From NCBI GenBank assembly GCA_019455285.1, contig JACFMS010000025.1, forward strand, positions 1 through 39,497: a DNA stretch of 39,497 bases. The letters are read 5' to 3'. Origin of the DNA: Sphingomonadales bacterium. Lineage in GTDB: Bacteria; Pseudomonadota; Alphaproteobacteria; Sphingomonadales; Govanellaceae. Of the stretch, positions 6,765-26,065 are shown piece after piece (the stretch's first letter is position 1; every line of letters begins with the position of its first letter). The notes below the pieces were generated by a model. That model was given only the letters and a program-made list of their open reading frames with translations. It made no database searches and was not told the origin of the DNA. The position numbers were made by a program, and so were the translations under genes.

Positions 6765-6909
6765 GGAAACGCCTCCCTTAAGCAATGAATAGTTCAGGGC
6801 AAAAAAACTCATACCACCGCCATCACCTTAGCAGCGGCACACGCCCTGGAATATAGCGCAAAACGATAGGTCGTCGGCGGAGAGCTGTAACCGACGGAAT
6901 CTACTCAAA

Positions 6910-6942
6910 AAGGGCTTGCGCCGCGGCCAGGAGGTCGCGGCG
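6910..6942 (-). terminator. Weak candidate terminator after the barrel-protein operon
   Basis: On the minus strand a 7-bp GC stem (6936-6942 with 6919-6925, 10-base loop) is followed after a short spacer by a run of five T. The distance from stem to T-run (about 8 bases) is long for an intrinsic terminator, so this is tentative. It lies 26 bases past the stop of the last barrel-protein gene and before the acoA leader. The surrounding gap, 6765-6967, holds no other feature I can support. Confidence 0.3.
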
Positions 6943-6967
6943 ATTCGCCTCAGATTCTGGTGCGGCC

Positions 6968-7618
6968 CTATTCGAGGAACAGGCGGATTTCGAGCTTGCC
7001 GAACATCACGCCATCGACCGTAAAGCCGGTCAGGCGGTCAATTTCGACAAAGCTGCCCTTGATATTGGCGAATTCGCCGCTGCCGCCGACGATCCGGCCG
7101 CGGCCGCTGGGCAGCGGCCCCACGGTGGTGGTTACTGTCCAGTCGCCCACCCAGTCCTTGCCCGATTTCATGGTGGGCTCGACGATATTGGGCCCCAGCC
7201 CGCCGGAGTGTTCGATTTGGTGCAGGAAGATCATGCCCCGACCCGGAATGGATAGCGTCCACGCCGTATCCCAGGAAATTTCCGCCGCTGCCGGATCGCC
7301 GGGGAAAATTTCCAGCTCTGAGGCGAAGCCGACGACATTGCCGTTCTCGTCCGCCAGTTTCATGATCAGCGCCAGGGTGTTGTTGAGCGCCGGTTCGGTA
7401 AAAAGGGCAATGCCCTCCGGCCCGGTGCGCAGCGGCATTTTGCCGCCGGTGGTCAACGCCACGCCATGATCGGGCAGAATGCCGAAGAACGACAGCACCT
7501 TCTCGCCCGGCGCAGGCTGGCTGTAGGCCGGTATATTATTAGCCTGGGCCATTGCGCTGATCGGCATGGCAAGCGCCATCAGCCCCACGGCGATAGTCCA
7601 AGATTTCGCTGTCTTCAT
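6968..7618 (-). CDS. Secreted allene-oxide-cyclase/dirigent-like barrel protein (paralog 1)
   Basis: A 216-residue protein with a clear signal peptide (MKTAKSWTIAVGLMALAMP, cleavage likely after AMA near residue 24). The body looks like a small beta-barrel: alternating strands ending in IVGGSGEFANIKGSFVEI, which matches the GxGxFxxxxG turn typical of allene-oxide-cyclase-like and dirigent-like barrels. Such barrels bind hydrophobic ligands; no enzyme activity can be claimed. The start at 7618 has AAGGAG just upstream; the frame is open for 79 more codons but those overlap the preceding gene. Last of three tandem paralogs that follow a TonB-dependent receptor gene. Function is unknown; family assignment is by pattern and moderate. 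Confidence 0.75.
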   Translation of the reverse strand: MKTAKSWTIAVGLMALAMPISAMAQANNIPAYSQPAPGEKVLSFFGILPDHGVALTTGGKMPLRTGPEGIALFTEPALNNTLALIMKLADENGNVVGFASELEIFPGDPAAAEISWDTAWTLSIPGRGMIFLHQIEHSGGLGPNIVEPTMKSGKDWVGDWTVTTTVGPLPSGRGRIVGGSGEFANIKGSFVEIDRLTGFTVDGVMFGKLEIRLFLE

Positions 7619-7634
7619 CTCGCTCTCCTTGCAG

Positions 7635-8336
7635 TTATTCGTCAAAAACAACGCGCAATTCCATGGTGCCGGCAAGCTGTTTGCCGGGCGAGAAATCCCG
7701 TAATTCGGCAAATTCGATGAAATGGCCGCGCTTACCGGCAAACTCGCCCGTGCCGCCGATGACTTGTCCGTAGCCATCCGGGCGCGGTCCCAGGGTATTG
7801 AGGTTTTTCCAGCTTCCCTGCCACGACTTGTTGAATAGTAAGCCAGGCAACACAAATCTTTTGAACAGGGTCCAGTTATCTTCCACCTGATAGAGAAACA
7901 GCACGCCGCGTCCCGGCGCGATCACGGTCCAGGTGGTGTGGGTCATGACCTTGCCCTTGATCAGGCGGCTCCCCTCATGACCGGATTCCAATTCGGTGGC
8001 GATGGCGACGATGTTGCCGTCGTCGTCCCGCATCTTGTTGATGAGCGCCAGGCCATCCTTGACGTTGGGTTCGCTGAGCACGCGGTCGGTTGCCGGCATC
8101 ATGGGAAAGATCGCCGGCGAGCCGGAGGTGACGAGCGATATCACGTCGCCGTCCCTTTGGTCGGAGAGCGTATAGCGGAAAATCTCCGGCGCTTTGGCGC
8201 TGGCTTCAAAGGCCGGCAATATCCGCTCCGTTCTGGCGGCATGGGGAAACGGGAAGTAGTAGAGCCCCGTCGCCAGCAAGGCCGCGCCCAGAATGCCCCC
8301 GCCCAGAAACAGGAGCGTGTTCTTCAGGAAGGTCAT
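7635..8336 (-). CDS. Membrane-anchored barrel-like protein (paralog 2)
   Basis: A 233-residue paralog of the two neighbouring proteins. The N-terminus carries a hydrophobic helix (LLFLGGGILGAALLATGLYY, about residues 8-27), which could be an uncleaved anchor or a signal peptide, so the barrel domain should face the periplasm. Shared motifs include APGRGVLFLYQVE (compare IPGRGMIFLHQIE in paralog 1), LGPRPDGYGQVIGGTGEFAGKRGHFIEF and a C-terminal MELRVVFDE. Its ATG overlaps the stop of paralog 3 (ATGA), and it ends 16 bases before paralog 1, so the three are co-transcribed. The conserved GGTGEFA turn suggests the same ligand-binding barrel. Ligand unknown. Confidence 0.75.
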   Translation of the reverse strand: MTFLKNTLLFLGGGILGAALLATGLYYFPFPHAARTERILPAFEASAKAPEIFRYTLSDQRDGDVISLVTSGSPAIFPMMPATDRVLSEPNVKDGLALINKMRDDDGNIVAIATELESGHEGSRLIKGKVMTHTTWTVIAPGRGVLFLYQVEDNWTLFKRFVLPGLLFNKSWQGSWKNLNTLGPRPDGYGQVIGGTGEFAGKRGHFIEFAELRDFSPGKQLAGTMELRVVFDE

Positions 8337-8881
8337 TCCATTCTCCCTTCACTGGTCAGGACAAGCCTATACCCGCCATTTTCCGAGGTCTCCGTCATCC
8401 GGCCTCGGAAAGCGGCGAATTCATCGGTGCCGCCGACGACTTCGCTGCATTGATCCGGGGCGCTTGGCGCGCAATGAGCGGCCAATGTGCCGCGCAGGGT
8501 CAAGACCAACGTCCAGGAGATGTCTCGGGCGGCGGGATCATCGCCAATGGCGACATATCTGGCGCCAACGCCGATGACAGTGCCTTGCGCATTCCGCACT
8601 TTCATCGTCACCACTTCGCTGCCGCTCAAGGCGGGCTCTTTTATTTGCTGGATGGCCTGTGGAAAGAGCCGCATTGCGCCGCTTCCGTCATGGGTAACCG
8701 CCAGAATATCCTCAGCGCCAACATGGAATGTCTCGACGCTGCGGCCGCTGTCATCGACCTGCACCAGGGGAGCGGCCCCAGGCGGATCCACCATCGGCAT
8801 GGAGAGCATTGCCGCCATGGCCGCTGCTCCCACTACACCGCCCAGCAAGACATACCCGCTCCGGGGACAACTCTTCGCCAT
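8333..8881 (-). CDS. Membrane-anchored barrel-like protein, shorter (paralog 3)
   Basis: A 182-residue divergent member of the same trio. An N-terminal hydrophobic segment (YVLLGGVVGAAAMAAMLSMP) is likely an anchor or signal. Shared features are ISWTLVLTLRGTLAAH, aligning with the ISWDTAWTLSIPGRG region of paralog 1, and VVGGTDEFAAFRGRMTET, the GGTxEFA turn. It has a pair of cysteines (HCAPSAPDQCSE) immediately before that turn which the other two lack, possibly a disulfide in the periplasm. The start at 8881 has AGGA about 9 bases upstream; an upstream in-frame ATG at 8965 would overlap the receptor gene heavily. The stop overlaps the paralog 2 start by four bases. Confidence 0.7.
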   Translation of the reverse strand: MAKSCPRSGYVLLGGVVGAAAMAAMLSMPMVDPPGAAPLVQVDDSGRSVETFHVGAEDILAVTHDGSGAMRLFPQAIQQIKEPALSGSEVVTMKVRNAQGTVIGVGARYVAIGDDPAARDISWTLVLTLRGTLAAHCAPSAPDQCSEVVGGTDEFAAFRGRMTETSENGGYRLVLTSEGRME

Positions 8882-8903
8882 TTGATCAGTCCTGATTTGA
8901 GCG

Positions 8904-11132
8904 TTAGAAATTGACCTTGCCCGACAGCGACCACTCCCGCGGCCGGCCATACTGCGCGGATGCAAAGCCCAAGCTATCCAGCACGCTGACGGCCGAAGAT
9001 TTATAACGCTTGTTGGTGACGTTATTGACCGCCAGGGTCAGGCTGTAGCGGCTGTCCGCCGGCTCCAACGAAGCTTGCAAGTTCAACAGGCCATATCTTT
9101 TCTGGGTGACCGATGGCAGATTGTTGACCTCGTAATAAATCTTGCTGCGGTAACTGAAGTCGCCGCGCACCGTAAGGTGACCCCAGTCGTTGAGCGGCAC
9201 GGCATATTGCGCCGATACTGATGAGGAGAATTTCGGCGTCGAGGCAAAATGCGAGTCCTCGGTGATCGGGGCGCCGGCTTCGACCGAGGTAAACTCCGCG
9301 TCGATGATGCCAACCGACGCCGCCAACAACATGCCCTCCATAGGCGCGGCGAGCAATTCAAACTCTGCGCCCATGACCCGAGCTTTTGCGGCGTTATCAA
9401 CAATGATCACCTGCACCCCTTCCGAATCGGCGGTGCTTAAGGTGAATTGAATATCCTTGTAATCGTTGTAGAAGACAGTGCCGTTAAAGCGGACGCGGTT
9501 ATCCAGCCACTCGGATTTGAATCCGGCTTCGTAACTCCACATCTTTTCCGGGTCGTAGGGCAGGATTTCGTTGGCGACCGTCGAGCGGCCATTAAAGCCG
9601 CCGCTTTTGAAGCCGCTGGCGGCGGAGATATAGGTCATGAAATGTTCGGTCCAGCGATAATCAAGACCAACCTTCGGCGAGAAGGAGTTCCATGAATCAT
9701 CACGGCTCATCGGCTCAATCAGATAGACGTCGCTCAAGAAAAGATAGAGCGACGTGCTGTAGTCCTTTTTCTCATGCGTGTATCGAACGCCCAGAGTGGC
9801 GTTCAGCTGATCGGTCAAGGCATAACTGCCCTGGCCATAGAGCGAGGCGCTCTTGGTAATCTGCGTCGAGTCAATAATTCGCGACAGATCCAGGCCAATG
9901 ATCGGCAAAAGATCCGGATAGAGGAAAACCTCGATATCGGTATGGGCGTTTTCATGGAGATAATAGCCGCCAATCACCCAATTCAGATGGTCATTGAAGG
10001 ACAGGCCGGAAAGCTGCAGTTCCTGTGTGAACTGGCGCTGACGATTGAAATCGTCTTCATTGACGATGGTCTGCGGCGAGCCATCCGGATCGGTGCCGAA
10101 CCGCGATTTCAAGTGACGATAGGCGGTGATGGATTTCAAGGTCACGCCATCAAGGTTCCACTCCAGCGTGCCGTTGACTCCCCAAATATCCTGATTGTTG
10201 AAATTATTTCCCGTGGCGTTGCTTTCGTAGGGATCATCGGTGATGTAGCGGTCATCATAGGGAGCTACGAACAGGTTGTAGAGCATCACCAGCGGCACGG
10301 CGGAAATTTCTTCCAAGTGCGTCTGGGAGAATTTTTCGCGCACCCGGGTCTTATCGAAGGATAGCGTAACCTCCAGGTCATCGGACGCCATCCAGCGCAG
10401 CACCCCTTGGATGGCCGCGCTGTCTTCATCCCCTTGCTCTTCTCCGGTCAAGAGCCGGGTGCCGAAGCCATCGGCGCTGCGGGCGCTGACGGCAACCTTG
10501 GCCGCCAGCTTGTCGGCGATCAGCGGCGCTTCCCCGCGGGCGCGCATGTCGATGCGATCGAAGCGGCCGATCTTGCCTTCGATGCTGCCGCCAAACTCAG
10601 TCAGGCTGGGCCTGGCCGAAACAATGTTGATGGCGCCGCCGATGGTGTTCTTGCCATAAAGGGTGCCTTGCGGGCCGCGCAGGATTTCGATCCGCTCGAT
10701 GTCAACAAGATCGAAAATGCTGCCCAGACTGCGGGCGAGATAGACGCCGTCGACATAGACGCCGACGCCGGGGTCGGTGGTCATCAGGTAGTCGACCTGG
10801 CCGACGCCGCGGATGAAGCCCTGGCCGGAATTCCTGCCGCCCACGCCGCTGGGATTAAACTGCACATTGGGCGCGTGCTGGGTGATATCGGATAGGGTGA
10901 CGATTTGGCGCTGGGCGATCTCATCCTTGGAAAAAGCGACGATGGAAACCGGCGTATCCTGCAGCCGCTCCTCCCTTTTGCGGGCGGTAACGGTGATCTC
11001 ATCCAGCGCCGCCATCTCCGCCTGCTGACTGAGCGCTTGGCTGGGCGCCGCCAGAAACGGCATTGCTGCGGCGCACAATAAGGCGGCCGTCGACGTCGTA
11101 CCCCGACTGAATAATAATCCTGATGTCCGCAT
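8904..11132 (-). CDS. TonB-dependent outer membrane receptor
   Basis: A 742-residue TonB-dependent receptor: signal peptide (hydrophobic AALLCAAAMPFLAAP, about 16-30), TonB box DEITVTARKREERLQDTPVSI near residue 45, plug domain with RGPQGTLYGKNTIGGAINI, then a 22-strand type barrel ending in a C-terminal Phe (SLSGKVNF) as outer-membrane proteins require. The style matches the large pesticin/FecA-like group whose substrates are often not iron, so ligand is not assignable. ATG at 11132 is preferred: GAGG lies 7 bases upstream, whereas the GTG at 11147 overlaps that site. First gene of the operon with the three barrel proteins; divergent from the double-HTH regulator gene. Confidence 0.93.
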   Translation of the reverse strand: MRTSGLLFSRGTTSTAALLCAAAMPFLAAPSQALSQQAEMAALDEITVTARKREERLQDTPVSIVAFSKDEIAQRQIVTLSDITQHAPNVQFNPSGVGGRNSGQGFIRGVGQVDYLMTTDPGVGVYVDGVYLARSLGSIFDLVDIERIEILRGPQGTLYGKNTIGGAINIVSARPSLTEFGGSIEGKIGRFDRIDMRARGEAPLIADKLAAKVAVSARSADGFGTRLLTGEEQGDEDSAAIQGVLRWMASDDLEVTLSFDKTRVREKFSQTHLEEISAVPLVMLYNLFVAPYDDRYITDDPYESNATGNNFNNQDIWGVNGTLEWNLDGVTLKSITAYRHLKSRFGTDPDGSPQTIVNEDDFNRQRQFTQELQLSGLSFNDHLNWVIGGYYLHENAHTDIEVFLYPDLLPIIGLDLSRIIDSTQITKSASLYGQGSYALTDQLNATLGVRYTHEKKDYSTSLYLFLSDVYLIEPMSRDDSWNSFSPKVGLDYRWTEHFMTYISAASGFKSGGFNGRSTVANEILPYDPEKMWSYEAGFKSEWLDNRVRFNGTVFYNDYKDIQFTLSTADSEGVQVIIVDNAAKARVMGAEFELLAAPMEGMLLAASVGIIDAEFTSVEAGAPITEDSHFASTPKFSSSVSAQYAVPLNDWGHLTVRGDFSYRSKIYYEVNNLPSVTQKRYGLLNLQASLEPADSRYSLTLAVNNVTNKRYKSSAVSVLDSLGFASAQYGRPREWSLSGKVNF

Positions 11133-11227
11133 GGTCTTTCCTCTCACTTTTAAGAATTCTTCTGCTTATCAGCCCCCTAAGGTAATTTATTAGACCATGG
11201 GCCAAGGCCGCCTCAAATAGGCGGGTA

Positions 11228-11255
11228 TGATCATTTTTCCGGGAAGTTTTGATCA
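11228..11255. promoter_or_regulatory. Candidate operator: paired TGATCA sites around TTCCGGGAA
   Basis: Two perfect TGATCA palindromes (11228-11233 and 11250-11255) lie 22 bases apart, two helical turns, on either side of a central TTCCGGGAA. The whole element is roughly symmetric. It lies just upstream of the -35 of the putative LuxR-type gene promoter, in the divergent region shared with the receptor operon. It is a plausible binding site for a dimeric regulator, perhaps the divergent regulator itself, but that is inference. Confidence 0.4.
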
Positions 11256-11257
11256 GA

Positions 11258-11286
11258 TTGAGGACGGGCTGAGCATCTGATATGGT
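11258..11286 (+). promoter_or_regulatory. Candidate sigma-70-type promoter of the LuxR-type regulator
   Basis: TTGAGG at 11258-11263 and TATGGT at 11281-11286 are separated by exactly 17 bases, each matching four of six consensus positions. The predicted start of transcription near 11293 would leave a leader of about 40 bases before the ATG at 11335, which has a strong G-rich ribosome site (GGGGGGAA). Confidence 0.35.
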
Positions 11287-11334
11287 TGAGGCAGGATAGC
11301 AGGCTGGCAATAAGGTATATGCGGGGGGAACGCC

Positions 11335-12651
11335 ATGAGCTTAGCGCTGCATGACAGGGACTACCAGCATATCGTTTCCATCGGCTCCGAGATCCTTGAA
11401 TACCGCTCCATGCCCGAGCTGATGGATGCCTCCATGCAGCGGATCAAAGGCGTCATTCCCGCAAAATGCATGATGTTCCTGCTGGCCAGCTCACCAAGTT
11501 GGCGGCTGGAGGAGACACGCACCATCGGCATTGACGATGACTACCCCACCCTCCACCACAGTCATTTTCATGAGGATCCGGGCAGACCCTATTTGATTGA
11601 AAATTGGCGGCTTGGTCGGCCGAAAGTGATGAATTCATCGCTCATCTGGCCGGTCGGCTTTGAGCCCCGCGATCGATTTTACCGCACCCTGTTGAAGCCG
11701 CGCGATCTTCGTCACTCGATGGTGATCTCCATCCCCATCGACAGCCATTTGTTCGGCAGTCTGGTGATGCTGCGCTCCAGCGGCGCGGGACCCTTCACAC
11801 ACCGGGACGAGACCTTTGCAGAAACCATAACGCCTTTCCTGAAAGGCGCAGTGGATCGCGCTTACGCCCATGAGAAAAACCGTCGGCTTGACTGGCTGTT
11901 ATCAGAAATCGGTCAGGACTTGCCCTATCAGGATTTCATCATGGTCGATCGGCAATTGGCCTTGATCTGCGGCTTACCGTCATCATCGACATTTCTACAG
12001 GATATCATCCGCGACATTCAAAGACCTTCGGGCCAAAAGCCGACGATCGCCCCCGATCTGCGTCCCATTTGCCTCAAGCTTCTGGAAGCGGAAAACAAGC
12101 GTCACGTTAAAGTGACAATCTCGTTCAGCGACGCCAAGCGGTGGGGATTGCAACTGTCCCTGGAGATTAGAAAACTTACCTATGGCCAGGATAGCGCCCT
12201 TTCCCTGCACATTTGCCGGGCAAACGATGCCATCGATGCAGCGGCGACTTTTGATCATTACAATCTGACGCGGCAGGAAAGCCTCATTGCCAGAGAGGCA
12301 TCCTTAGGTCTGACAAACGCCGAGATCGCCAAGCGGCTGGCGATCTCGCCATCCACGGTCGCCAATCACCTGTCGTCGGCATTAGCAAAAACCGGCCTTA
12401 AAGCCCGCTGGCAGATGATGCGCAAATCAAATCTGGCGCAGAAAATTGCGGCATTGCCGTTGACCAAGCGCGAACGTCAGATCTTGCAGGCGCGAGCCTC
12501 GGGCTTACCGACGCCGGCGTTGGCCGCCAAATTCAATATCGGAGAAGTTACGGTCCGCAACCATTTGCGGTCGATCTACCGGAAGCTTGGGGTGTCGGGA
12601 TTTCGCGGCGTGATGGCATATCTGGAGGCCATGGATACTGGCCCGAACTGA
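11335..12651 (+). CDS. LuxR/GerE-type transcriptional regulator with two C-terminal HTH domains
   Basis: A 438-residue regulator. Residues 1-180 resemble the N-terminal sensory region of a group of LuxR-type regulators (DPGRPYLIENWRLGRPK at 81-97, FYRTLLKPRDLRHSM near 115-129, AGPFTHRDE at 151-159), probably GAF-like. Residues 180-305 are unassigned. Two GerE-like helix-turn-helix domains then follow: 309-363 (LTRQESLIAREASLGLTNAE ... STVANHLSSALAKTGL) and 374-430 (LTKRERQILQARASGL ... VTVRNHLRSIYRKLGV). Most LuxR proteins have one. It is divergent from the receptor/barrel-protein operon and is the obvious candidate to regulate it. It converges with a receiver protein gene only 6 bases away. 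Signal unknown. Confidence 0.88.
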   Translation: MSLALHDRDYQHIVSIGSEILEYRSMPELMDASMQRIKGVIPAKCMMFLLASSPSWRLEETRTIGIDDDYPTLHHSHFHEDPGRPYLIENWRLGRPKVMNSSLIWPVGFEPRDRFYRTLLKPRDLRHSMVISIPIDSHLFGSLVMLRSSGAGPFTHRDETFAETITPFLKGAVDRAYAHEKNRRLDWLLSEIGQDLPYQDFIMVDRQLALICGLPSSSTFLQDIIRDIQRPSGQKPTIAPDLRPICLKLLEAENKRHVKVTISFSDAKRWGLQLSLEIRKLTYGQDSALSLHICRANDAIDAAATFDHYNLTRQESLIAREASLGLTNAEIAKRLAISPSTVANHLSSALAKTGLKARWQMMRKSNLAQKIAALPLTKRERQILQARASGLPTPALAAKFNIGEVTVRNHLRSIYRKLGVSGFRGVMAYLEAMDTGPN

Positions 12652-12657
12652 TGGACC

Positions 12658-13179
12658 TTAGGCCTTTTCGGTTTCCTTGTTTTGCGCCGCCGTCTTGGAT
12701 TTGCCGCGACGCTCTTTTGCCACATCCACCTTGCGCCGGCGGCGGTCTGGACCGATATAAGCCGGATCGACAATAAAATCTCTGGGACGCAATTTCAACG
12801 AAGTCAGCACTCTTTCCATCGCTTTCAAAGAAAGCGGCATGGCAAGAAACTCCGTGGCGCCAAGATCGCGCGCCGTGGTGATCTGCTCGATGCTCGGTTG
12901 CGAGACGATCATGATGACCGGTATGCGATAATTGTGCGACGCCTTGGGGTTGCGCACGCACTTTAAGAGATCAAGCGCGGGCAGATTGTTGGAAACCCAG
13001 TTGCAGAAGATAATATCCACCCGCTGGGCCGCCAGGTGCTGCAGCATGTCCGGTATGGTTTGCGAAACGTTTATCTCCTTCACGCCGCAGTCGCGCAGCA
13101 ACGCCAGCACTGACTTTGCGTTGCTAGCGTCGGGGTCAACAATCAGCATTCGAATAGCGGCGAATGACGGCATGCTCAT
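12658..13179 (-). CDS. Receiver-domain protein lacking the phosphoacceptor Asp (pseudo-receiver)
   Basis: A 173-residue stand-alone CheY-like receiver domain with a basic tail. The fold is evident (MLIVDPDASNAKSVLALLRD, DIIFCNWVSNN, IPVIMIVSQP, ARDLGATEFLAMPLS), but the position of the phosphorylated Asp is Asn60 (FCNW) and the conserved Lys after beta-5 is Met114 (LAMP). The acidic pair D15/D17 is kept. The C-terminal part has FIVDPAYIGPDRRRRK, a motif shared with the neighbouring receiver protein and common in alphaproteobacterial receiver proteins. It probably cannot be phosphorylated normally. It is 113 bases downstream of its paralog on the same strand. Output and partner are unknown. 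Confidence 0.85.
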   Translation of the reverse strand: MSMPSFAAIRMLIVDPDASNAKSVLALLRDCGVKEINVSQTIPDMLQHLAAQRVDIIFCNWVSNNLPALDLLKCVRNPKASHNYRIPVIMIVSQPSIEQITTARDLGATEFLAMPLSLKAMERVLTSLKLRPRDFIVDPAYIGPDRRRRKVDVAKERRGKSKTAAQNKETEKA

Positions 13180-13292
13180 TTTTCGGCGCGTTTATATATG
13201 CCTATTCTTACGGCTTTATGGTCAGCCGCTACGCTTAAAATATCGTTAAATTTTTTCCCATTTCTTAACCTGGTGGGCAGGAGCGGCGGCCG

Positions 13293-13799
13293 CTAGGTCG
13301 CCAGATCTCCTTTCTGCCGCTCCCGGCGCTCCTGGGGGGTGGGCTGCTTTTTTCGCCGTCGGTCGGGACCGAAGAACGATTTTTCATCGATGAACGGCCG
13401 CGGCCGCTCCAACGCCGACTTCAAGGCCCGATGCATGGCCTGCTGCGAGACCGGCTTGGCGACGAATTCGGTGGCGCCAAGGTCGCGGGCGCGCAGCACG
13501 TGGCGCAACTCCGGCTCGCTTGACATGATGACCACCGGCACGCGGGGGTTGTGAGGCGCATTGCGGTCGCGAATGCAGCATAAAATATCCTGATGGGAGC
13601 TGGCGTCGCTGCGCCAGTCGCACACCACCACATCCGGCGAGCCTAAGCGCAAAAGCTGCAGACCATCCTGCGCGTTGGCGGCGACCATAACCGAGCCGAT
13701 GCCCGACTGGCGAATCAGCGCCGTGATCAGCTTGGCCGAATGGGCATTGCCATCGATCAGAAGGGCGGTCAAGCTGCTTTGCAGAAGGGTAAGCGACAT
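13293..13799 (-). CDS. Stand-alone response regulator receiver protein
   Basis: A 168-residue receiver-only protein. The phosphoacceptor Asp61 (VVCDWRSD), the Lys115 (FVAKPVS) and Asp16 are present, although the usual second acidic residue after Asp16 is Gly/Asn (LLIDGNAHS). The C-terminus FIDEKSFFGPDRRRKK followed by a basic tail matches the paralog at 12658-13179. No HTH or enzymatic output domain is present, so it should act by protein-protein contacts. No histidine kinase gene is adjacent. It is divergent from the DUF6491 gene. The pair probably arose by duplication, with this copy remaining phosphorylatable and the other degenerate. Confidence 0.87.
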   Translation of the reverse strand: MSLTLLQSSLTALLIDGNAHSAKLITALIRQSGIGSVMVAANAQDGLQLLRLGSPDVVVCDWRSDASSHQDILCCIRDRNAPHNPRVPVVIMSSEPELRHVLRARDLGATEFVAKPVSQQAMHRALKSALERPRPFIDEKSFFGPDRRRKKQPTPQERRERQKGDLAT

Positions 13800-13956
13800 G
13801 GGGAAACGCCAAGTTTCTAAAAGGACCGGCGGCTACCTTCTCAACTATCGGTTTATACACGGTAAATGCCGACCGCCCTTATTCAGCAATCGTACATATT
13901 CGGCAAGGCAGGTTTATGATAGCTTCTGTCCAGGAAGCCAACGAGGAGTAACCCCC

Positions 13957-14346
13957 ATGTCCATTCGCCTTACCTTGGCGGCGTTCGCCGCCGTGGCGGT
14001 CGGGGCAGCGACGGCGGCCTTGGCCGATGAAAAAGCCGCCCCGGCCAACAACCCGGATGAGACGGCCCCAGCCTGTCTCCAGCTCTATCAGATCGACCGC
14101 ACCGAGGTGGTCGATGATTACACCCTGCTCTTTCACATGAAGGGGGGGAAGACCTATGTCAGCAAGTTCCCCTACCGCTGCCATGGCCTGAAGTTCGAAC
14201 GCGGCTTTGCCTATTCGACCAGCATTCCGCAGATCTGCGGCAATGTCGACTTCATCACCGTCATCCGGCGCGGCAATGCCTGCCCCTTGGGCCCGTTCCA
14301 GCTCTATACGCCAGAGCCCAAGAAGGACGACAAGGTTAAAGACTGA
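13957..14346 (+). CDS. Secreted DUF6491-like protein
   Basis: A 129-residue protein with a signal peptide (MSIRLTLAAFAAVAVGAATA, cut near ALA-D at 23). The mature part has four cysteines spaced as ACLQLYQI, YRCHGLKF, ICGNVDF and ACPLGPF, with VDDYTLLFHMKGGKTYV between, a pattern I associate with the DUF6491 family of small exported proteins of unknown role; two disulfides are likely. The ATG at 13957 is preceded by GAGGAG about 7 bases upstream, and the signal peptide confirms it; the frame is open further upstream but that part overlaps the response regulator gene. A strong terminator follows at 14390. Confidence 0.75.
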   Translation: MSIRLTLAAFAAVAVGAATAALADEKAAPANNPDETAPACLQLYQIDRTEVVDDYTLLFHMKGGKTYVSKFPYRCHGLKFERGFAYSTSIPQICGNVDFITVIRRGNACPLGPFQLYTPEPKKDDKVKD

Positions 14347-14389
14347 ACGAACAGAAGAGCCTGACCTTCGAGTTAAGGTTAATTCGCCG

Positions 14390-14428
14390 TCGCGCCGGGT
14401 TTGCATTGATCCCGGCGCGATTTTTTTT
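14390..14428 (+). terminator. Strong intrinsic terminator
   Basis: A perfect 10-bp stem, TCGCGCCGGG (14390-14399) with CCCGGCGCGA (14411-14420), an 11-base loop and then eight T. It ends the transcript of the DUF6491 gene 44 bases after its stop codon and insulates the CRP-like site that begins 8 bases later. Confidence 0.92.
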
Positions 14429-14435
14429 CGTAAAA

Positions 14436-14451
14436 TGTGATCTAGATCACA
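14436..14451. promoter_or_regulatory. Perfect CRP/FNR-family palindrome
   Basis: The 16-base sequence TGTGATCTAGATCACA is a perfect palindrome and matches the enterobacterial CRP consensus half-sites TGTGA-N6-TCACA exactly. It also contains GAT-N4-ATC, related to FNR/FixK sites (TTGAT-N4-ATCAA). Its centre is about 68 bases upstream of the predicted transcription start of the small gene at 14555, a position typical for activators of this family. The regulator is not in the window. Confidence 0.7.
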
Positions 14452-14477
14452 ACATCTTGTGGTAAACGTCCTTAAAA

Positions 14478-14505
14478 TTGCCAAAGTTTAATGAAATGGT
14501 AATAA
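14478..14505 (+). promoter_or_regulatory. Candidate sigma-70-type promoter for the small gene
   Basis: TTGCCA at 14478-14483 and TAATAA at 14500-14505 have a 16-base spacer. Transcription would start near 14512, after the ATG at 14507 and before the one at 14555, supporting the later start. The CRP-like palindrome lies upstream at about -68. Confidence 0.45.
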
Positions 14506-14554
14506 AATGTCGCGAAAGTTAAGCGGCAAAAAAAAGTTTGAGGAAACGTCGTCC

Positions 14555-14743
14555 ATGTTTACTTGGCTCAAAAGAAAGCCCGCAGCCGCTGAAGCGACGG
14601 AGATCGATATCTTCGACGCGCCGCCGGTGGTGCTCGGCCGCCCCATCGGCCGGTCGACGCCGAAAGCCAGCGCGGCTGGAGACCAGAAAGTCTGCCTTAA
14701 CCGGGCGGAAGAGCTGATCCGCGCCGCCCGCTCCGTGGCGTAA
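14555..14743 (+). CDS. Small protein of unknown function (62 residues)
   Basis: I do not recognise this protein. From the chosen start it is 62 residues: a basic, slightly hydrophobic N-terminus (MFTWLKRKPAAAEATE), an acidic-hydrophobic patch (IDIFDAPPVVLGRPIG), a flexible middle and a C-terminal helix (CLNRAEELIRAARSVA). The ATG at 14555 has GAGGAA about 9 bases upstream; an earlier in-frame ATG at 14507 would add 16 residues but lies before the predicted transcription start. A CRP-like palindrome and a promoter precede it, which makes it more likely to be real and regulated by global metabolic or oxygen state. It converges with parC. Confidence 0.55.
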   Translation: MFTWLKRKPAAAEATEIDIFDAPPVVLGRPIGRSTPKASAAGDQKVCLNRAEELIRAARSVA

Positions 14744-14762
14744 GGGGTTAGGGCCTATTTAC

Positions 14763-16979
14763 CTAGTCGAAGCGGTTGCTGCGCGGGAAACCGGCTGGCG
14801 GCAGCCGCCCGGCATTACCGCGCGAGCCAATCCAATCCGCCAGATCCGTCTCCGTGCGCTGCCGATCCCCGATCTTCCATGTCAACCCTTCGTTCTTGCG
14901 GAACACCTTGGCGTCGCTGACGCCGCCGTCGCGGTAGCGCTGCAAGAGCACGCCCCGCCCACGGGTCATCTCCGGCAACTCGGCCAAGGGAAAGACCAGG
15001 AGCTTGCGATTCTGGCCAACACTGGCCACATGGTCGCCGTCCGCCGGCACGCAAAGCTTGGCCCGCGCCTTGGGTTCGGTATTCATCACCTGCTTGCCGG
15101 CCCGGGTCTGCGCCACCGCCTTGTCGGCCTCGACCACAAACCCTTTGCCGTCCTCCGAGACGACCAGCAGCCGGCTGCCCGGCCGGTAGAGAAAGAGGGC
15201 GACGATCTCCTCGTCATTGCCAAGATCGATCATGAGGCGCACCGGCTCGCCATGGCCGCGCCCGCCCGGCAGCTTGTCGCCGCTTAAGGTATAAAAGCGG
15301 CCGTTGGAGGCAAAGAGCAGGATTTTGTCGGTGGTCTGGGCATGGAGCCAGAACTTGGCCTGGTCACCTTCCTTGTACTTGATCTCCTCGCTTTGCGCCT
15401 GATGGCCCTTCATGGCGCGAATCCAGCCTTTTTCCGAACAGATGACGGTAATGGGTTCGCGTTCGATCATCGCCTCTAAAGGCACCACATCGACCATCGG
15501 CGCCTCGGCAAAATCGCTGCGCCGCCGGCCAAGCGCGGTCTTGGCGCCGAATTTTTCCTTGATCGCCGCGATCTCCTCGGCAATGCGCTTCCATTGCAAG
15601 GTTTCATCGGCAAGCAGCGCCTTCAGTTCCTTCTTTTCCGCCGACAGCGTCTTGTGCTCGCCCTTGATCTCCATCTCCTCCAACCGGCGCAACGAGCGCA
15701 ATCGCATGTTGAGGATCGCCTCGGCCTGCACGTCGGAGAGCTTGAAGCGCTTCATCAGGGCGGGCTTCGGCTCATCCTCCTCGCGGATGATGCGGATCAC
15801 CTCGTCAAGATTGAGATAGGCGATGAGATAACCCTCGAGCACCTCCAGCCGATGCTCGATCTTGCCCAGGCGATGGCGAGAGCGGCGCAGCAGCACTTCC
15901 AGCCGGTGATCAAGAAAGGCCTGCAAGGCTTCCTTCAAGGACATCACCCGGGGCGTACGGTTCTTGTCGAGCACATTGAGGTTCAAGGGCACGCGCACCT
16001 CAAGCTCGGTGAGCTTGAACAAGCTTTCCATCAGCACGTTGGCTTCCACCGTGCGGGCGCGGGGCTCCAGCACCAGGCGCACTTCATCCGTCGACTCGTC
16101 GCGCACGTCCTGAAGGATCGGCAGCTTCTTATCGGAAATCAGGTCGGCGATCTTCTCAATCAGCTTCGACTTTTGCACCTGGTAGGGAATTTCCGTGACC
16201 ACGATCTGATACTGGCCGCGGCCGGTGTCCTCCACCTGCCAACGCGCCCGCAGCCGAAACGATCCGCGACCGGTTTCATAGGCCTGCTCAATGGACTCTT
16301 TGGCCTCGACGATGGTGCCGCCGGTGGGAAAGTCGGGGCCCGGAATGCGGTTGAGGAGCTGCGCCGTGGTGGCGTTGGGGTGACGGATAAGATATTGGAG
16401 TCCGTCGCACAGCTCGGAGACATTGTGCGGCGGCACGCTGGTGGCCATGCCAACGGCGATGCCGGCAGCGCCATTGGCCAGCAAGTTCGGGAAGGCGGCG
16501 GGCAGCACGTCGGGTTCGCTGTCCTCGCCGTCGTAGGTGGGGTGGAAATCCACCGCGTCCTCGTCGATGCCATCAAGAAGCGCCATGGCGACCTCGGTCA
16601 GCCGCGCCTCGGTATAGCGCATGGCCGCCGCGTTATCGCCGTCGATGTTGCCGAAGTTGCCCTGACCGTCCACCAGGGGATAGCGAACGGCAAAATCCTG
16701 CGCCAGACGCACCAGCGCGTCATAGACCGACTGATCGCCGTGGGGATGGTATTTGCCGATGACGTCGCCCACCACCCGGGCGCACTTCTTAAAGCCGGTG
16801 GCCGGGTCAAGCTTCAACTGCCGCATGGCGAAAAGCAGCCGGCGATGCACCGGCTTTAAGCCATCCCGCACGTCGGGCAGCGAGCGCGACATGATGGTGG
16901 ACAGGGCATAGGACAGGTAACGCTCGCTCAACGCCTCGGATAGTTCGGCGTCGCGGATCTGTTCGGCGGCTTTGATCAT
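14763..16979 (-). CDS. parC: DNA topoisomerase IV subunit A
   Basis: A 738-residue type IIA topoisomerase A subunit that decatenates daughter chromosomes with ParE. The start is ATG at 16979; a TTG two codons earlier is possible. Catalytic Tyr122 lies in [10 protein letters not shown]. Other family segments are [50 protein letters not shown], the [14 protein letters not shown] motif and C-terminal beta-pinwheel repeats ([18 protein letters not shown]). The length (under 800) and lack of a GyrA box support ParC over GyrA. The position equivalent to E. coli Ser80 is Gln83. It lies downstream of recO, separated by a nested inverted repeat. Confidence 0.95.
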
Positions 16980-17025
16980 GGGCAAAAATCTGGAGAGTTG
17001 AGGTTAAAGGAAATGGTAGAGAATA

Positions 17026-17121
17026 CCCCCTCACCCAGCTCCGACTAAGCTCGGTCCACGACCTCGCTAAGTCTTCGCATCCCTCTCCCCCTCCTAGGGG
17101 GAGAGGGGTAGGGTGAGGGGG
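17026..17121. repeat. Nested inverted-repeat intergenic element
   Basis: The outer arms CCCCCTCACCC (17026-17036) and GGGTGAGGGGG (17111-17121) are perfect reverse complements. Inside, CCCTCTCCCCC (17081-17091) pairs with GGGGGAGAGGG (17097-17107) around a 5-base loop. This nested form, built from CCCTCACCC and CCCTCTCCCC blocks, resembles dispersed palindromic elements common between alphaproteobacterial genes. It fills most of the recO-parC gap and would fold in RNA into a long hairpin without a T-tract. Confidence 0.8.
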
Positions 17122-17151
17122 TCGATTTCCTACCCTCTTAAAACGCGGGCG

Positions 17152-17913
17152 TCACTCTACCCCCGGCCGGGCGGCGGACGCAACCCGCTCGGCAAAACGC
17201 AGGCGGGCAGGCGGGAGCGTCGCGCCATGGGGGCCAAGAACGTGGCGTTCAAGAAAAAAGCTGGTGAGCGTCAGCCCCGCCGCCGCCTCTCCCATCGAGA
17301 CGGCGGAACCGCCTTCCCGCAAAAACGCCGGCAATGGCAATAACTTATCGTGATAGGCCCGGCCGGCGGCGGCGCTCACCGCCCGGCCCGATTTCGGCGA
17401 CACATAGATAAGATCATCAACCCCGCCGGTCGCCGCGCAGGCGGTCAAATCAAGGCCATAGCCGAGATCGGCGAGCAGCGCCGCCTCCCACTGCGCCACC
17501 GCCCCCGCCCACCGCGGCCAGGCCGCCGGCTCATCGCCAGAGGCGTCCAAGAGGTCGATCACCGCCAGGAGACCGCTAAATGCCGCCGGATGCGGCTCGC
17601 GCTCCGGCAGCGTGGCGCTGGCCATGGCAATGAGCGCGGTGAGCGCTTCCAGCCTTAAGACATCATGGCAGAGCGCCAACCCGTGGACGCGGGCAATCTC
17701 GGTGGTCAACACTCCCATCTGGGTTTCCAGCCGCGCCCGCCACGTCACGGACAGCAGATTACCTGGCTGCAGGTTGCCGCGCTGACGGCGGGAGTAACCG
17801 CCCTTGACGATACCCAGGACGCGGCCGCGTCCTTCGCACAAAATCTCCAAGAGCGCGTCATGCTCGCCATGCCGCCGCAGCCCCAAGACGATCCCGGTGT
17901 CTCGCCATTCCAT
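17152..17913 (-). CDS. recO: DNA repair protein RecO
   Basis: A 253-residue RecO, which with RecR loads RecA on SSB-coated single-stranded DNA in the RecF pathway. The N-terminal OB fold is clear (MEWRDTGIVLGLRRHGEHDALLEILCEGRGRVLGIVKGG with RRQRGNLQPGNLLSVTWRARL). A helical C-terminal domain follows, including FLREGGSAVSMGEAAAGLTLTSFFLERHVLG. The cysteine zinc cluster found in some RecO proteins is reduced here to a single TACAATGGVDDLIYVSPKSGRAVS segment, as in many alphaproteobacteria. It is the last gene of the lepB-rnc-era-recO series, 27 bases after era. Confidence 0.93.
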   Translation of the reverse strand: MEWRDTGIVLGLRRHGEHDALLEILCEGRGRVLGIVKGGYSRRQRGNLQPGNLLSVTWRARLETQMGVLTTEIARVHGLALCHDVLRLEALTALIAMASATLPEREPHPAAFSGLLAVIDLLDASGDEPAAWPRWAGAVAQWEAALLADLGYGLDLTACAATGGVDDLIYVSPKSGRAVSAAAGRAYHDKLLPLPAFLREGGSAVSMGEAAAGLTLTSFFLERHVLGPHGATLPPARLRFAERVASAARPGVE

Positions 17914-17940
17914 GGTGTGATTGTGGGGCCTGCCGCTCCG

Positions 17941-18846
17941 TCAGTCCACATAGTCGAGACCGAGGGCGCGGTAGCGCTCGCGATCCTCGCCCCAGCCCTC
18001 GCGCACCTTGACGAACAGAAAGAGGTGCACGCGGCGGCCGAGCATCGTTTCCAGCTCCTCACGCGCCGCCTGGCCGATGGCCTTCAGGCGCTGGCCCTTC
18101 TTGCCGATGACAATGGCCTTCTGGCCGTCGCGCTCCACAAAAATCACCTGCGAAATGCGCACGCTGCCGTCTTTCTGCTCTTCCCACCCCTCGGTTTCGA
18201 CGGTGGAGGCGTAGGGCAGTTCCTCGTGCAATTGGTCGTACATTTTCTCCCGCGTCACTTCCGCCGCCAGGAGACGCTCGGAAATATCCGCCAGTTGGTC
18301 CGGCGGATAAAGCCAGGGGCCTTCCGGCACCGCTACGGACAGATGCGCCTTCAAGTCGGCCACCCCGTCGCCGGTCAAGGCCGAGATCATGAAGATATCG
18401 GTAAAAATGCCCGCGGCATTAAGATCAGCCGCGAGCTTGAGAAGAGATTCCCGCTTCACCGCGTCGATCTTGTTGAGGGCCAAGATCGCCTGTCGTCCGG
18501 CGCTCTTGAGACGGGCGATGATGTCCTGGGTCTCATCCGCGCCCTTGCGCTCGGCATCGACCACCAGGACGATGAGGTCAGCTTCTTCCGCCCCGGCCCA
18601 GGCGGCCGCCACCATGGCGCGGTCGAGCCGCCGGCGCGGCCGGAAGATGCCCGGCGTATCGACGAACACCAATTGCGACTGCCCGGCCATGACGATGCCC
18701 AGCGTGCGGGTGCGGGTGGTCTGCACCTTGCGGCTGACGATGGCGATCTTGGCCCCCACCAACTGATTGATCAGCGTCGATTTGCCGGCATTGGGCGCGC
18801 CGACGATGGCGATGAAGCCGCAGCGTGTCTTATCGTCAGCGGCCAT
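17941..18846 (-). CDS. era: GTPase Era
   Basis: A 301-residue Era, the essential GTPase that binds the 3' end of 16S rRNA and guides 30S assembly. G motifs are all present: G1 GAPNAGKST at 16-24, G2 region with TTRTRTLG, G3 DTPGIF, G4 NKID near residue 120, and SALTGDG as G5. The KH RNA-binding domain follows (VIFVERDGQKAIVIGKKGQRLKAIG). Its start overlaps the end of rnc by 11 bases, the usual coupling of rnc and era. Everything fits the family at full length. Confidence 0.97.
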   Translation of the reverse strand: MAADDKTRCGFIAIVGAPNAGKSTLINQLVGAKIAIVSRKVQTTRTRTLGIVMAGQSQLVFVDTPGIFRPRRRLDRAMVAAAWAGAEEADLIVLVVDAERKGADETQDIIARLKSAGRQAILALNKIDAVKRESLLKLAADLNAAGIFTDIFMISALTGDGVADLKAHLSVAVPEGPWLYPPDQLADISERLLAAEVTREKMYDQLHEELPYASTVETEGWEEQKDGSVRISQVIFVERDGQKAIVIGKKGQRLKAIGQAAREELETMLGRRVHLFLFVKVREGWGEDRERYRALGLDYVD

Positions 18847-19516
18847 CGCCGGTCACCTTTTTATACATCGCCTCGGCAGCGGCAACCTCCGCCGTCCGCT
18901 TGGAGCTGCCTTCGCCGGTCACCGGCTCAAATCCTTCCACATCAACGGCGACGACGAATTGCGGCGCATGATCGGGACCGCTGCGCTCGACCTCGCGATA
19001 GGTGGGCGCCGGCAGCCCCCGCCCCTGCGCCCATTCCTGCAGGTCGGTCTTGGCGTGCCGCGCCGCCTCGCCCAACCCATCAAAAAAACGCGCCCAGGCG
19101 CGGCGAATAAGGCCCCGCGCCGCCTCCAGGCCGCCATCCAGGTAGATCGCCCCGATCACCGCCTCGCAACAGTCGGCGAGAATGGCCGGCTTTGTCCGCC
19201 CACCCTCGTCCTCGGCGCCCCGCGACATCAGGACATAGCGAGCGAGGTCCAAGTCCTTGGCCGCCTCGGCCAGGGTTTCGCGCTTGACCAGGGCGGCCAG
19301 ACGCTGGGCAAGCGGTCCTTCCTTCAGTTTCGGGTAGCGCTCCAGGAGCCATTCCGCCACCACCAGACCCAGCACCCGATCGCCAAGAAATTCCAGCCGT
19401 TCGTAGTTAACGTCGCCAGCCAGGCTGGCGTGGCTGAGCGCTTGGCGCAGCAGGGCGGATGATTGGAAGCGATAGCCGAGGCTGTCGTAAAGCGGGGAAA
19501 GGTCGCCGTCCGTCAT
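18836..19516 (-). CDS. rnc: Ribonuclease III
   Basis: A 226-residue RNase III, which cuts double-stranded RNA in rRNA precursors and many mRNAs. The signature ERLEFLGDRVLGL at 39-51 supplies the metal-binding Glu42 and Asp46. The second acidic cluster is in AILADCCEAVIGAIYLDGG. A double-stranded RNA-binding domain fills the C-terminus (TDLQEWAQGRGLPAPTYREV ... GSSKRTAEVAAAEAMYKKV). The start at 19516 was chosen because the protein domain begins there; the open frame extends 90 codons upstream but overlaps lepB. It starts 4 bases after the lepB stop and overlaps era by 11 bases. Confidence 0.96.
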   Translation of the reverse strand: MTDGDLSPLYDSLGYRFQSSALLRQALSHASLAGDVNYERLEFLGDRVLGLVVAEWLLERYPKLKEGPLAQRLAALVKRETLAEAAKDLDLARYVLMSRGAEDEGGRTKPAILADCCEAVIGAIYLDGGLEAARGLIRRAWARFFDGLGEAARHAKTDLQEWAQGRGLPAPTYREVERSGPDHAPQFVVAVDVEGFEPVTGEGSSKRTAEVAAAEAMYKKVTGDGR

Positions 19517-23764: not shown

Positions 23765-26065
23765 CTAGAACTTGATGTTTACCCCGGCATAGATCGAACG
23801 GCCCATGCCGGGAACAGTAACACCCCAAGGAACTAGGCCGGGTTTTGGCGGCATAGTCGCACCCTGGCCGGTGTAGGCGCCACTTAGCGGGTGGCTGTAG
23901 AACTCATCGAAAACGTTTTCGACCCCGATGTCGAAGCGTACTCGCTTCCATTCGTAGCTGCTGCGTAAGTGGACGAGGCTGTAGCTGTCGGTCGGAATCT
24001 CGTTCCTCACCTGCGATACCCTATCCTTGTCATCGACCCATTCGAGTTCAATCGTATTAGTCCAACTGTTCAGGCGATGGCTCACCGCCAGTTTTACGTT
24101 CAACGGCATGATGTTGTAGAGATTGTCTCCGGTCGTCCGGTTTTTGCCCCTGACATAGTTCAGGACGCCGCTGGCGGTGAAGTTGCCGTAGCGCTCGGTC
24201 TTCGCCAGGAGCACATGGCCGGATACATCCAGACCATACAATCTAGCCGATTGATTGACGAAGGTAAGGAAGACGAAATCGTCCGTTACGCCCACGCTTT
24301 TAGCGAGCCGTTCGGCATCGATGTAGTCCTTGACGTGGGTGTAGTACGGGCTCACCTTCAGCCCCCACTTCTCCTGGGCGGCATCGTGCAAGTCGAAGGT
24401 GACGCTGACGGTGTGGGCAACCTCCTGATCCAGATCGAGATTGCCGACATAACCATTGCCGTCACCGGCCATGTTGACCATGAGCATCGCCATGCCGCCG
24501 GTTGACCAGGTGTAGCGCTCGTAGAGGTTGGGTGAGCGAGTCTTGCGGGCCAATCCGAACTCGATGGTGCGCGTGGCGTCCAGGGTAAAGCGCGCCAGGG
24601 CGGTCAGATCGAAGTTGTTGTCGGTCCGCTTGCGGTCGGCGGCATTGAAGTCATTCGCATCTGCCGAGTAACCGGCGTTATACCCCTGCACTTTGCCCGC
24701 ATCCATCTCCACCCGCTCAGCGCGGATCCCGAACTGAGTGAGCCACTGTGGGCTCCACCTCGCCTCCCATTCGGTGAACAGGGCCAGTCGGTCCCGCTTG
24801 CCGTCGTTGATGTTCCAGAAGGTGTCCGGCCACATCCCCTTGCCGGCCGGATCCCACCAGTCGTCCAGGCGGTAGCGCTGGGCCTCGGTGCCCACGCGGA
24901 GCAGATCGCGTGCCGTGAGTTTAATATCCGCCTTTACCGCCACACCGGTGTTTTTGCCCTCGGTGTCCATGGGCATGCCGGCTGCGCATCCCCCAGGATT
25001 GCCTTTGGGAGTGCAGGGAATGCCGCTGTCGGAGAAGTTGTTGGGTGAGCTAGGGCCGTACCAGAAGAGCTTGTCATCGCCGAACTGCATCTTGTGGCGC
25101 GTCTTTTCATGATAGACGCGGCCCTCCAGCGAGCCCCAGTCGAGTTCGGCGGTATGGCGCAGGTTGACCTGTATGCTGTCGTTACCGGTCATGTCCATGC
25201 GCTGGTTGGGCCAGTTCTGAAATGGGATGTCCTGCACGCCGAGCTTCAGCTCGGTTAGGTGGTTCTCGTTACGCATGGCGAGGCTAAGCGAGTGGTTGCG
25301 TGATCTGTAAGCCGTTGATCCCACCTCGTCCCCCTCCAGCCACCCTCTACCTGGTGCTGCCAAGCCGGCATCCTTGAATGCCTTGGCTGATTTGTAGTTG
25401 TCGGCTTCCGCTGTGGAGCCGCTATAGGTCATGCTGAGGGTCTCGTTGGCGATGGTCGCTTTGACGTTGGCGCCTCTGGCGTTGCCGTTGCTGCGATAGT
25501 AGAAACCAGTCTCCCCCTTCAGCAGGGTACCCTCACCGGTAGCGGCGAACTCGGGCGCGGACGACTCCGCCAAAATCGTACCGCCAATGCTGTCACCCCC
25601 GAGGCTGACTGGCGTAATGCCGGCAAACACCTTGATGCTCTCCACGTTGGTCGGATCCATGTAGGAGAGAGGTGGATTCATGTGGTTGCCGCAGGCCGAA
25701 ATCAGGTCCATGCCATCGACCTTAATGCGCAAGCGGTCATCGGCCAGACCGTGAATTGCCGGCAGACTGGAACCCCCCCCGGCACCGTACAGGCTCACGC
25801 CAGGCATGTTTTTCAGAAGACTTGCCGTGTCACTGGTGGCGGGCCGCAAAGACTGCAATGCCGCATCGTCGAGTTCTGATGCGTTAAATAGCTGCGCATC
25901 GGCCGCTGGCACCTGTTGATCATCCACAGCCGTAACCGGCATATCGGGCAGCTTCACCGCCTCCTGCGCGGCGGCCGGCAGGACAAGCGCCACCACGGCG
26001 CAGGAAACGGTTAAAGAAGCATGGGCTCGGCCATGGCCGAGCTTTAAAGACTTTGTTACAGACAT
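23765..26065 (-). CDS. TonB-dependent copper receptor (OprC/NosA-like)
   Basis: A 766-residue TonB-dependent outer-membrane receptor. A signal peptide (VSCAVVALVLPAAA, about 20-33) is followed by a TonB-box-like VKLPDMPVTAVD, a plug with NMPGVSLYGAGGGSSLPAIHGLADDRLRIKVDGMDLI, and a barrel ending in Phe (YAGVNIKF). The plug contains ACGNHMNPPLSYMDP, with Cys125, His128 and Met129, very like the CPNHM segment of Pseudomonas OprC, where Cys and Met of this loop bind copper. A second candidate ligand patch is NQRMDMTGND. This places it in the TonB-copper (OprC/NosA) family. ATG at 26065 has GAGGAA just upstream. It is preceded by a DUF2946 ORF and followed by a terminator. Confidence 0.92.
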   Translation of the reverse strand: MSVTKSLKLGHGRAHASLTVSCAVVALVLPAAAQEAVKLPDMPVTAVDDQQVPAADAQLFNASELDDAALQSLRPATSDTASLLKNMPGVSLYGAGGGSSLPAIHGLADDRLRIKVDGMDLISACGNHMNPPLSYMDPTNVESIKVFAGITPVSLGGDSIGGTILAESSAPEFAATGEGTLLKGETGFYYRSNGNARGANVKATIANETLSMTYSGSTAEADNYKSAKAFKDAGLAAPGRGWLEGDEVGSTAYRSRNHSLSLAMRNENHLTELKLGVQDIPFQNWPNQRMDMTGNDSIQVNLRHTAELDWGSLEGRVYHEKTRHKMQFGDDKLFWYGPSSPNNFSDSGIPCTPKGNPGGCAAGMPMDTEGKNTGVAVKADIKLTARDLLRVGTEAQRYRLDDWWDPAGKGMWPDTFWNINDGKRDRLALFTEWEARWSPQWLTQFGIRAERVEMDAGKVQGYNAGYSADANDFNAADRKRTDNNFDLTALARFTLDATRTIEFGLARKTRSPNLYERYTWSTGGMAMLMVNMAGDGNGYVGNLDLDQEVAHTVSVTFDLHDAAQEKWGLKVSPYYTHVKDYIDAERLAKSVGVTDDFVFLTFVNQSARLYGLDVSGHVLLAKTERYGNFTASGVLNYVRGKNRTTGDNLYNIMPLNVKLAVSHRLNSWTNTIELEWVDDKDRVSQVRNEIPTDSYSLVHLRSSYEWKRVRFDIGVENVFDEFYSHPLSGAYTGQGATMPPKPGLVPWGVTVPGMGRSIYAGVNIKF

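Follow-up and report, generated by a model that had tools for sequence, protein, structure and literature searches.

A TonB-dependent receptor gene closely packed with three genes for predicted allene oxide cyclase/dirigent-class barrel proteins in a Sphingomonadales genome

The window analysed here (39,497 nucleotides, one contig of a 3.3 Mb Sphingomonadales genome) carries a TonB-dependent receptor gene (TBDR) followed on the minus strand by three short genes, B3, B2 and B1, with a LuxR-type regulator gene divergent from TBDR (Table 1). An earlier note on this DNA had named all of these parts, and all were located, as was the GG[ST]xEFA turn that it described (GGSGEFA in B1, GGTGEFA in B2 and GGTDEFA in B3). 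The packing is operon-like: TBDR and B3 are separated by 22 bases, the B3 stop and the B2 start have 4 bases in common, and 16 bases lie between B2 and B1, with Shine-Dalgarno-like stretches (judged by eye) ahead of both B2 and B1. The B3 start is best read as the ATG at 8881, in preference to the mechanically called TTG at 8965, and the B1 start as the ATG at 7618. TBDR probably starts at ATG 11132, which is preceded by the ribosome-binding-like sequence GAGAGGAA.

Table 1. Genes and sequence features of the locus (positions in the window; operator patterns were picked after inspection, so their chance odds are too favourable)
Feature	Position	Strand	Length	Description
TBDR (TonB-dependent receptor)	11147-8904	minus	747 aa	Plug and TonB_dep_Rec, Pfam above cut-off
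B3	8881-8333	minus	182 aa	Putative N-terminal hydrophobic anchor; short barrel paralog (predicted); 1/4 invariant Glu
B2	8336-7635	minus	233 aa	Putative N-terminal hydrophobic anchor; full-length barrel paralog (predicted); 4/4 Glu
B1	7618-6968	minus	216 aa	Signal-peptide-like N-terminus; full-length barrel (predicted); 4/4 Glu
LuxR-type regulator	11335-12651	plus	438 aa	GerE HTH domain in two copies; N-terminus weakly GAF-like
Stem-loop then CCCTTTTT	6895-6945	minus		-17.1 kcal/mol, z -2.07; between B1 and E1-alpha
Candidate operator CCGCCTCAAATAGGCGG	11208-11224			Identical in sister genome; 1 match in window, 0.02 expected
Candidate operator TGATCA-N16-TGATCA	11228-11255			Identical in sister genome; 1 match in window, 0.02 expected

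The receptor was identified by its Plug (E=6e-20) and barrel (E=7e-51) domains in Pfam. Searching the 3.3 Mb genome with it returned 58 matches at E up to 1e-30, itself included, a strong receptor expansion, and linkage of a receptor to the barrel genes is therefore weak evidence when taken alone. A second TonB-dependent receptor gene lies within the window at 23765-26065.

B1-B3 matched no Pfam or NCBIfam family at E up to 1, and no named PHROGs family over the cut-off. A PDB sequence search named no family and gave three chance-level DNA ligase matches. The curated cut-offs of Pfam AOC_like (PF18678) and Dirigent (PF03018) were not reached by members of the barrel family. With AOC_like, the genome search hit one place only, on a different contig and below the cut-off; with Dirigent, only the member from genome G236 was matched, over the GG turn (16.3 bits against a cut-off of 29.1, E=0.0082). 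A plasmid search gave no match, 48 pattern stretches in viral contigs included no relative, and a literature search found no paper joining allene oxide cyclase (AOC), dirigent and bacteria with a TonB-dependent receptor. B1-B3 are described as a new, unnamed family that falls in a known class of fold and is linked to a receptor gene, and as exported on the basis of hydropathy. The hydrophobic N-termini suggest the arrangement proposed earlier, with one protein secreted and two probably anchored.

A model of B1, built on a 7-row alignment, had a pLDDT of 73.5 and a pTM of 0.72, with residues 1-27 below pLDDT 50. Foldseek gave 13 PDB matches with E no higher than 0.001. Every one was an AOC, a dirigent protein or a bacterial Diels-Alderase-type cyclase, Tsn15 being one of these cyclases. 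The best was AOC 4h69 (E=2.6e-5), and query TM-scores were low (0.29-0.45). With VIA-align the top match was pyocyanin demethylase 5k21 (Z 13.1, 2.7 Å over 118 residues), followed by Cyc15 (Z 12.5), PyrI4 (11.9), AbyU (11.5) and AOC (11.2), with designed barrels (Z 7.6 and 6.2) and nitrobindin (5.8) ranking lower. The B3 model was poor (pLDDT 53.6); its best Foldseek match was again 5k21 (E=1.2e-4), and VIA-align gave Z 12.0 for Cyc15 and 11.4 for 5k21. Because B1 and B2 were part of the alignment used for B3, its model is not independent of that of B1. B1 is assigned with fair confidence, as a matter of fold and not of function, to the AOC/dirigent class, and B3 probably belongs there too on a low-confidence model; the barrel guess of the earlier note has to this extent held.

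Cyclases, Diels-Alderases and guides of radical coupling are the best-known AOC/dirigent-type barrels. Structural homology between PyrI4 and AOC has been described (PMC6218421), as has a distant similarity of AOC to dirigent proteins (PMC4340379). B1-B3 would share with these proteins and with AbyU and Cyc15 the predicted barrel, the GG[ST]xEF turn and probably a hydrophobic cavity. They differ in their N-terminal export or anchor segment (by hydropathy), their own set of glutamates, the receptor link and the lack of an AOC_like or Dirigent match over cut-off, and B1 and B2 in about 35 extra residues. The likeness to pyocyanin demethylase is one of fold only, at 14-17% identity to B1 and B3 in the structural alignments, and lends no support to pyocyanin as a substrate.

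The three proteins are divergent paralogs, as had been claimed, and their similarity far exceeds what chance would give (B2 against B1, E=2.5e-30 and 33% identity; B1 against B3, E=1.6e-7; family profile against B3, E=2.1e-13). In a 12-member alignment, 18 columns, one of them the start Met, were invariant across 10/10 full-length rows; the effective row number is below 10, since the B1 and B2 pairs from the sister genomes and the pair G346a and G869a are near-copies. The invariant residues include Glu101, 103, 136 and 192, Trp120, Trp156 and Gly178-179 (B1 numbering), the Gly pair being that of the GGxG turn; B1 and B2 retain all eight of these. In B3 the four Glu positions are occupied by Arg, Val, Pro and Glu. 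It is also without about 35 residues (about 138-172 of B1, Trp156 among them) that include a helix and a strand in B1 and B2. Given the loss of three Glu and of this segment, B3 looks like an accessory paralog. In a tree of the 12 rows B1 grouped with G346a/G869a (82/91) and the remaining deep forks were weak. Values of dN/dS against the sister genome G010 were 0.067 for TBDR, 0.085 for B1, 0.087 for B2, 0.203 for B3 and 0.157 for LuxR, which places all five genes under purifying selection, B3 being the most relaxed.

The regulator carries two GerE stretches (E=1.2e-24, Pfam), in agreement with the double-HTH LuxR type proposed for it; the N-terminal GAF match was below cut-off. Relatives were present in 5/196 genomes searched, with a close orthologue only in G010. 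A single-HTH relative on contig C40 of the source genome aligns with residues 111-360 and stops at the first HTH; the second HTH therefore appears to have been added. The divergent position and the conserved intergenic region suggest that LuxR may be dedicated to the set. The 131 intergenic columns nearest TBDR, ending at its first codon as read from ATG 11132, show 2 differences from G010 (binomial p 0.006 at 6.7% background), odds that are too favourable because this stretch, like the two dyads of Table 1, was picked after inspection. A promoter scan of the intergenic region found nothing. Beyond LuxR, at 12658-13179 and 13293-13799, are tandem stand-alone response-regulator receiver paralogs, about 40% identical to each other and without a recognised output domain.

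Barrel members are few. They were found in 3/147 genomes of the order by sequence search and in 3/396 by profile search, in 3/385 genomes of the class, and in 1/398 of the phylum, the source genome itself (these draws overlap, and all four counts include the source genome); 3/5 genomes of the family of G346 also carry them. A scan of named genomes gave two carriers, the sister MAG QEVO01000001.1 (isolate PRO5) and an Emcibacter MAG. The expectation that the genes are kept together elsewhere was borne out in G010, which alone has the complete set including LuxR. It failed in four other carriers (G080, G346 and G869 with two genes each, and G236), where the barrels are unlinked single genes and only G236 has a receptor nearby, about 29-30% identical to TBDR. 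With several of these carrier contigs no longer than 3.3, 3.5, 5.0 and 8.6 kb, absent neighbours there prove little. The case for a conserved system is weak.

At about 93% identity to G010 the locus matches the background divergence of the window, and a reading of recent transfer since the split from that genome was rejected on this ground. A separate tract at 13000-19500 (parC/gyrA-like, recO and neighbours) shares 98.6-100% identity with the sister genome, against mostly about 87-97% in the rest of the compared window with a few short stretches to 99%, and is likely to reflect recent homologous recombination.

Beyond the fold, the neighbourhoods in G236 and G346 are the sole functional hint. 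In G236, a distant genome of another order, one strand reads TBDR, SnoaL_4, SDR, barrel, P450, P450, with the barrel open frame overlapping the SDR stop. A SnoaL gene lies on the opposite strand between receptor and SnoaL_4, and genes for an FMN dehydrogenase, a luciferase-like monooxygenase and a CoA-transferase are found further on. This row suggests that a hydrophobic cyclic compound is broken down. In G346 a Rieske/VanA_C oxygenase gene is found 3.4 kb away from one of the barrel genes. Import of compounds of this kind through a receptor has a precedent in EdcT, the TonB-dependent receptor for estradiol in the estrogen degrader Novosphingobium tardaugens, deletion of which slows growth on estradiol (PMC7793797). 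The likeness to steroid uptake of this type in sphingomonads is one of gene setting, with a receptor beside catabolic genes and, in G236, also P450 and SDR; as far as the available part of that account goes it mentions no barrel protein, unlike the B1-B3 locus (PMC7793797).

The reading preferred here, at a rough probability of 0.45, is that an imported hydrophobic molecule is bound, and probably chemically converted, in the periplasm in a receptor-coupled manner. TBDR would carry a hydrophobic, probably cyclic or polyunsaturated, small molecule across the outer membrane. B1, as a soluble periplasmic protein, and B2, tethered to the inner membrane, may then hold it in the barrel cavity and would most likely convert it by isomerisation, cyclisation or dealkylation before cell entry. 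The short, tethered B3 could be a partner or carrier, and the double-HTH LuxR may control the set from the shared intergenic region. The AOC-class fold, the invariant Glu, the packed genes, the dN/dS values, the G236 row and the EdcT precedent were counted for this reading; the hydrophobic nature of the ligand is suggested by the fold class and that one neighbourhood. Counted against it were the restriction of the set to one other, close genome, the small number of carriers, the distance of the G236 receptor, the 58 receptor matches in the genome and the low TM-scores. The uptake or sensing interpretation of the earlier note is partly supported: it stands as regards the barrel fold and falls short as regards a set kept together beyond G010.

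If the barrels were instead non-catalytic periplasmic carriers or co-sensors, passing the ligand to an inner-membrane transporter or reporting to the regulator, one soluble and two tethered forms would suit a relay, and the purifying selection on B3 despite its lost Glu would fit. Four Glu invariant in every full-length row nevertheless exceed the needs of pure hydrophobic binding, the fold neighbours are mostly enzymes, and the gene list and Pfam annotation of the window place no transporter in the operon; this account is considered rather unlikely. More doubtful still is a protective role, in which exported enzymes or binders neutralise a toxic hydrophobic metabolite of neighbours, with the receptor linked incidentally or for salvage. 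Pyocyanin demethylase, which neutralises pyocyanin, is the top match of B1 in VIA-align and of B3 in Foldseek, and the distribution of the barrels is patchy. Its Z is, however, close to that of other members of the fold family, a packed operon with a receptor suits uptake better, and in the same gene list and annotation no resistance or efflux gene was recognised adjoining the operon.

A link to the genes past B1 was considered as well. Acetoin-dehydrogenase-like (aco-like) E1-alpha, E1-beta and lipoyl/alpha-beta-hydrolase E2 genes lie at 6812-3642 on the same strand, E1-alpha beginning 155 bases past B1. The proposal that the module feeds them and that LuxR controls both sets draws on this proximity and on G077, where a distant LuxR relative (L046 3-1109) adjoins another aco-like cluster with a dihydroxyacetone-kinase-like gene (kinase named by eye). 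Against it, the stem-loop between B1 and E1-alpha, whose arms are kept in G010, is a possible terminator, although a terminator scan made no call there and read-through is still allowed; the LuxR relative in G105 adjoins a phosphoglucose-isomerase-like gene instead; and in G017, of the same family, aco-like genes stand without receptor, barrels or LuxR beside them, which rules out an obligate link. Feeding of these genes is accordingly held to be very unlikely. The G017 orthologues lie among P450-, SDR- and acyl-CoA-dehydrogenase-like genes (names by eye).

Within the preferred reading of uptake and conversion, a bolder and rather speculative version would see in the barrels a hitherto unrecognised family of exported enzymes of AOC fold with a glutamate tetrad. 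Fed by the TonB-dependent receptor, they would carry out a cyclisation- or isomerisation-type step in the periplasm on a natural product taken up from outside, and a tethered, degenerate paralog would be their partner. B1, a small protein, looks like a feasible target for crystallography. If the reading is true, an exported, receptor-linked family would widen the AOC/dirigent class and would give a handle on how Alphaproteobacteria import hydrophobic molecules and start to process them.
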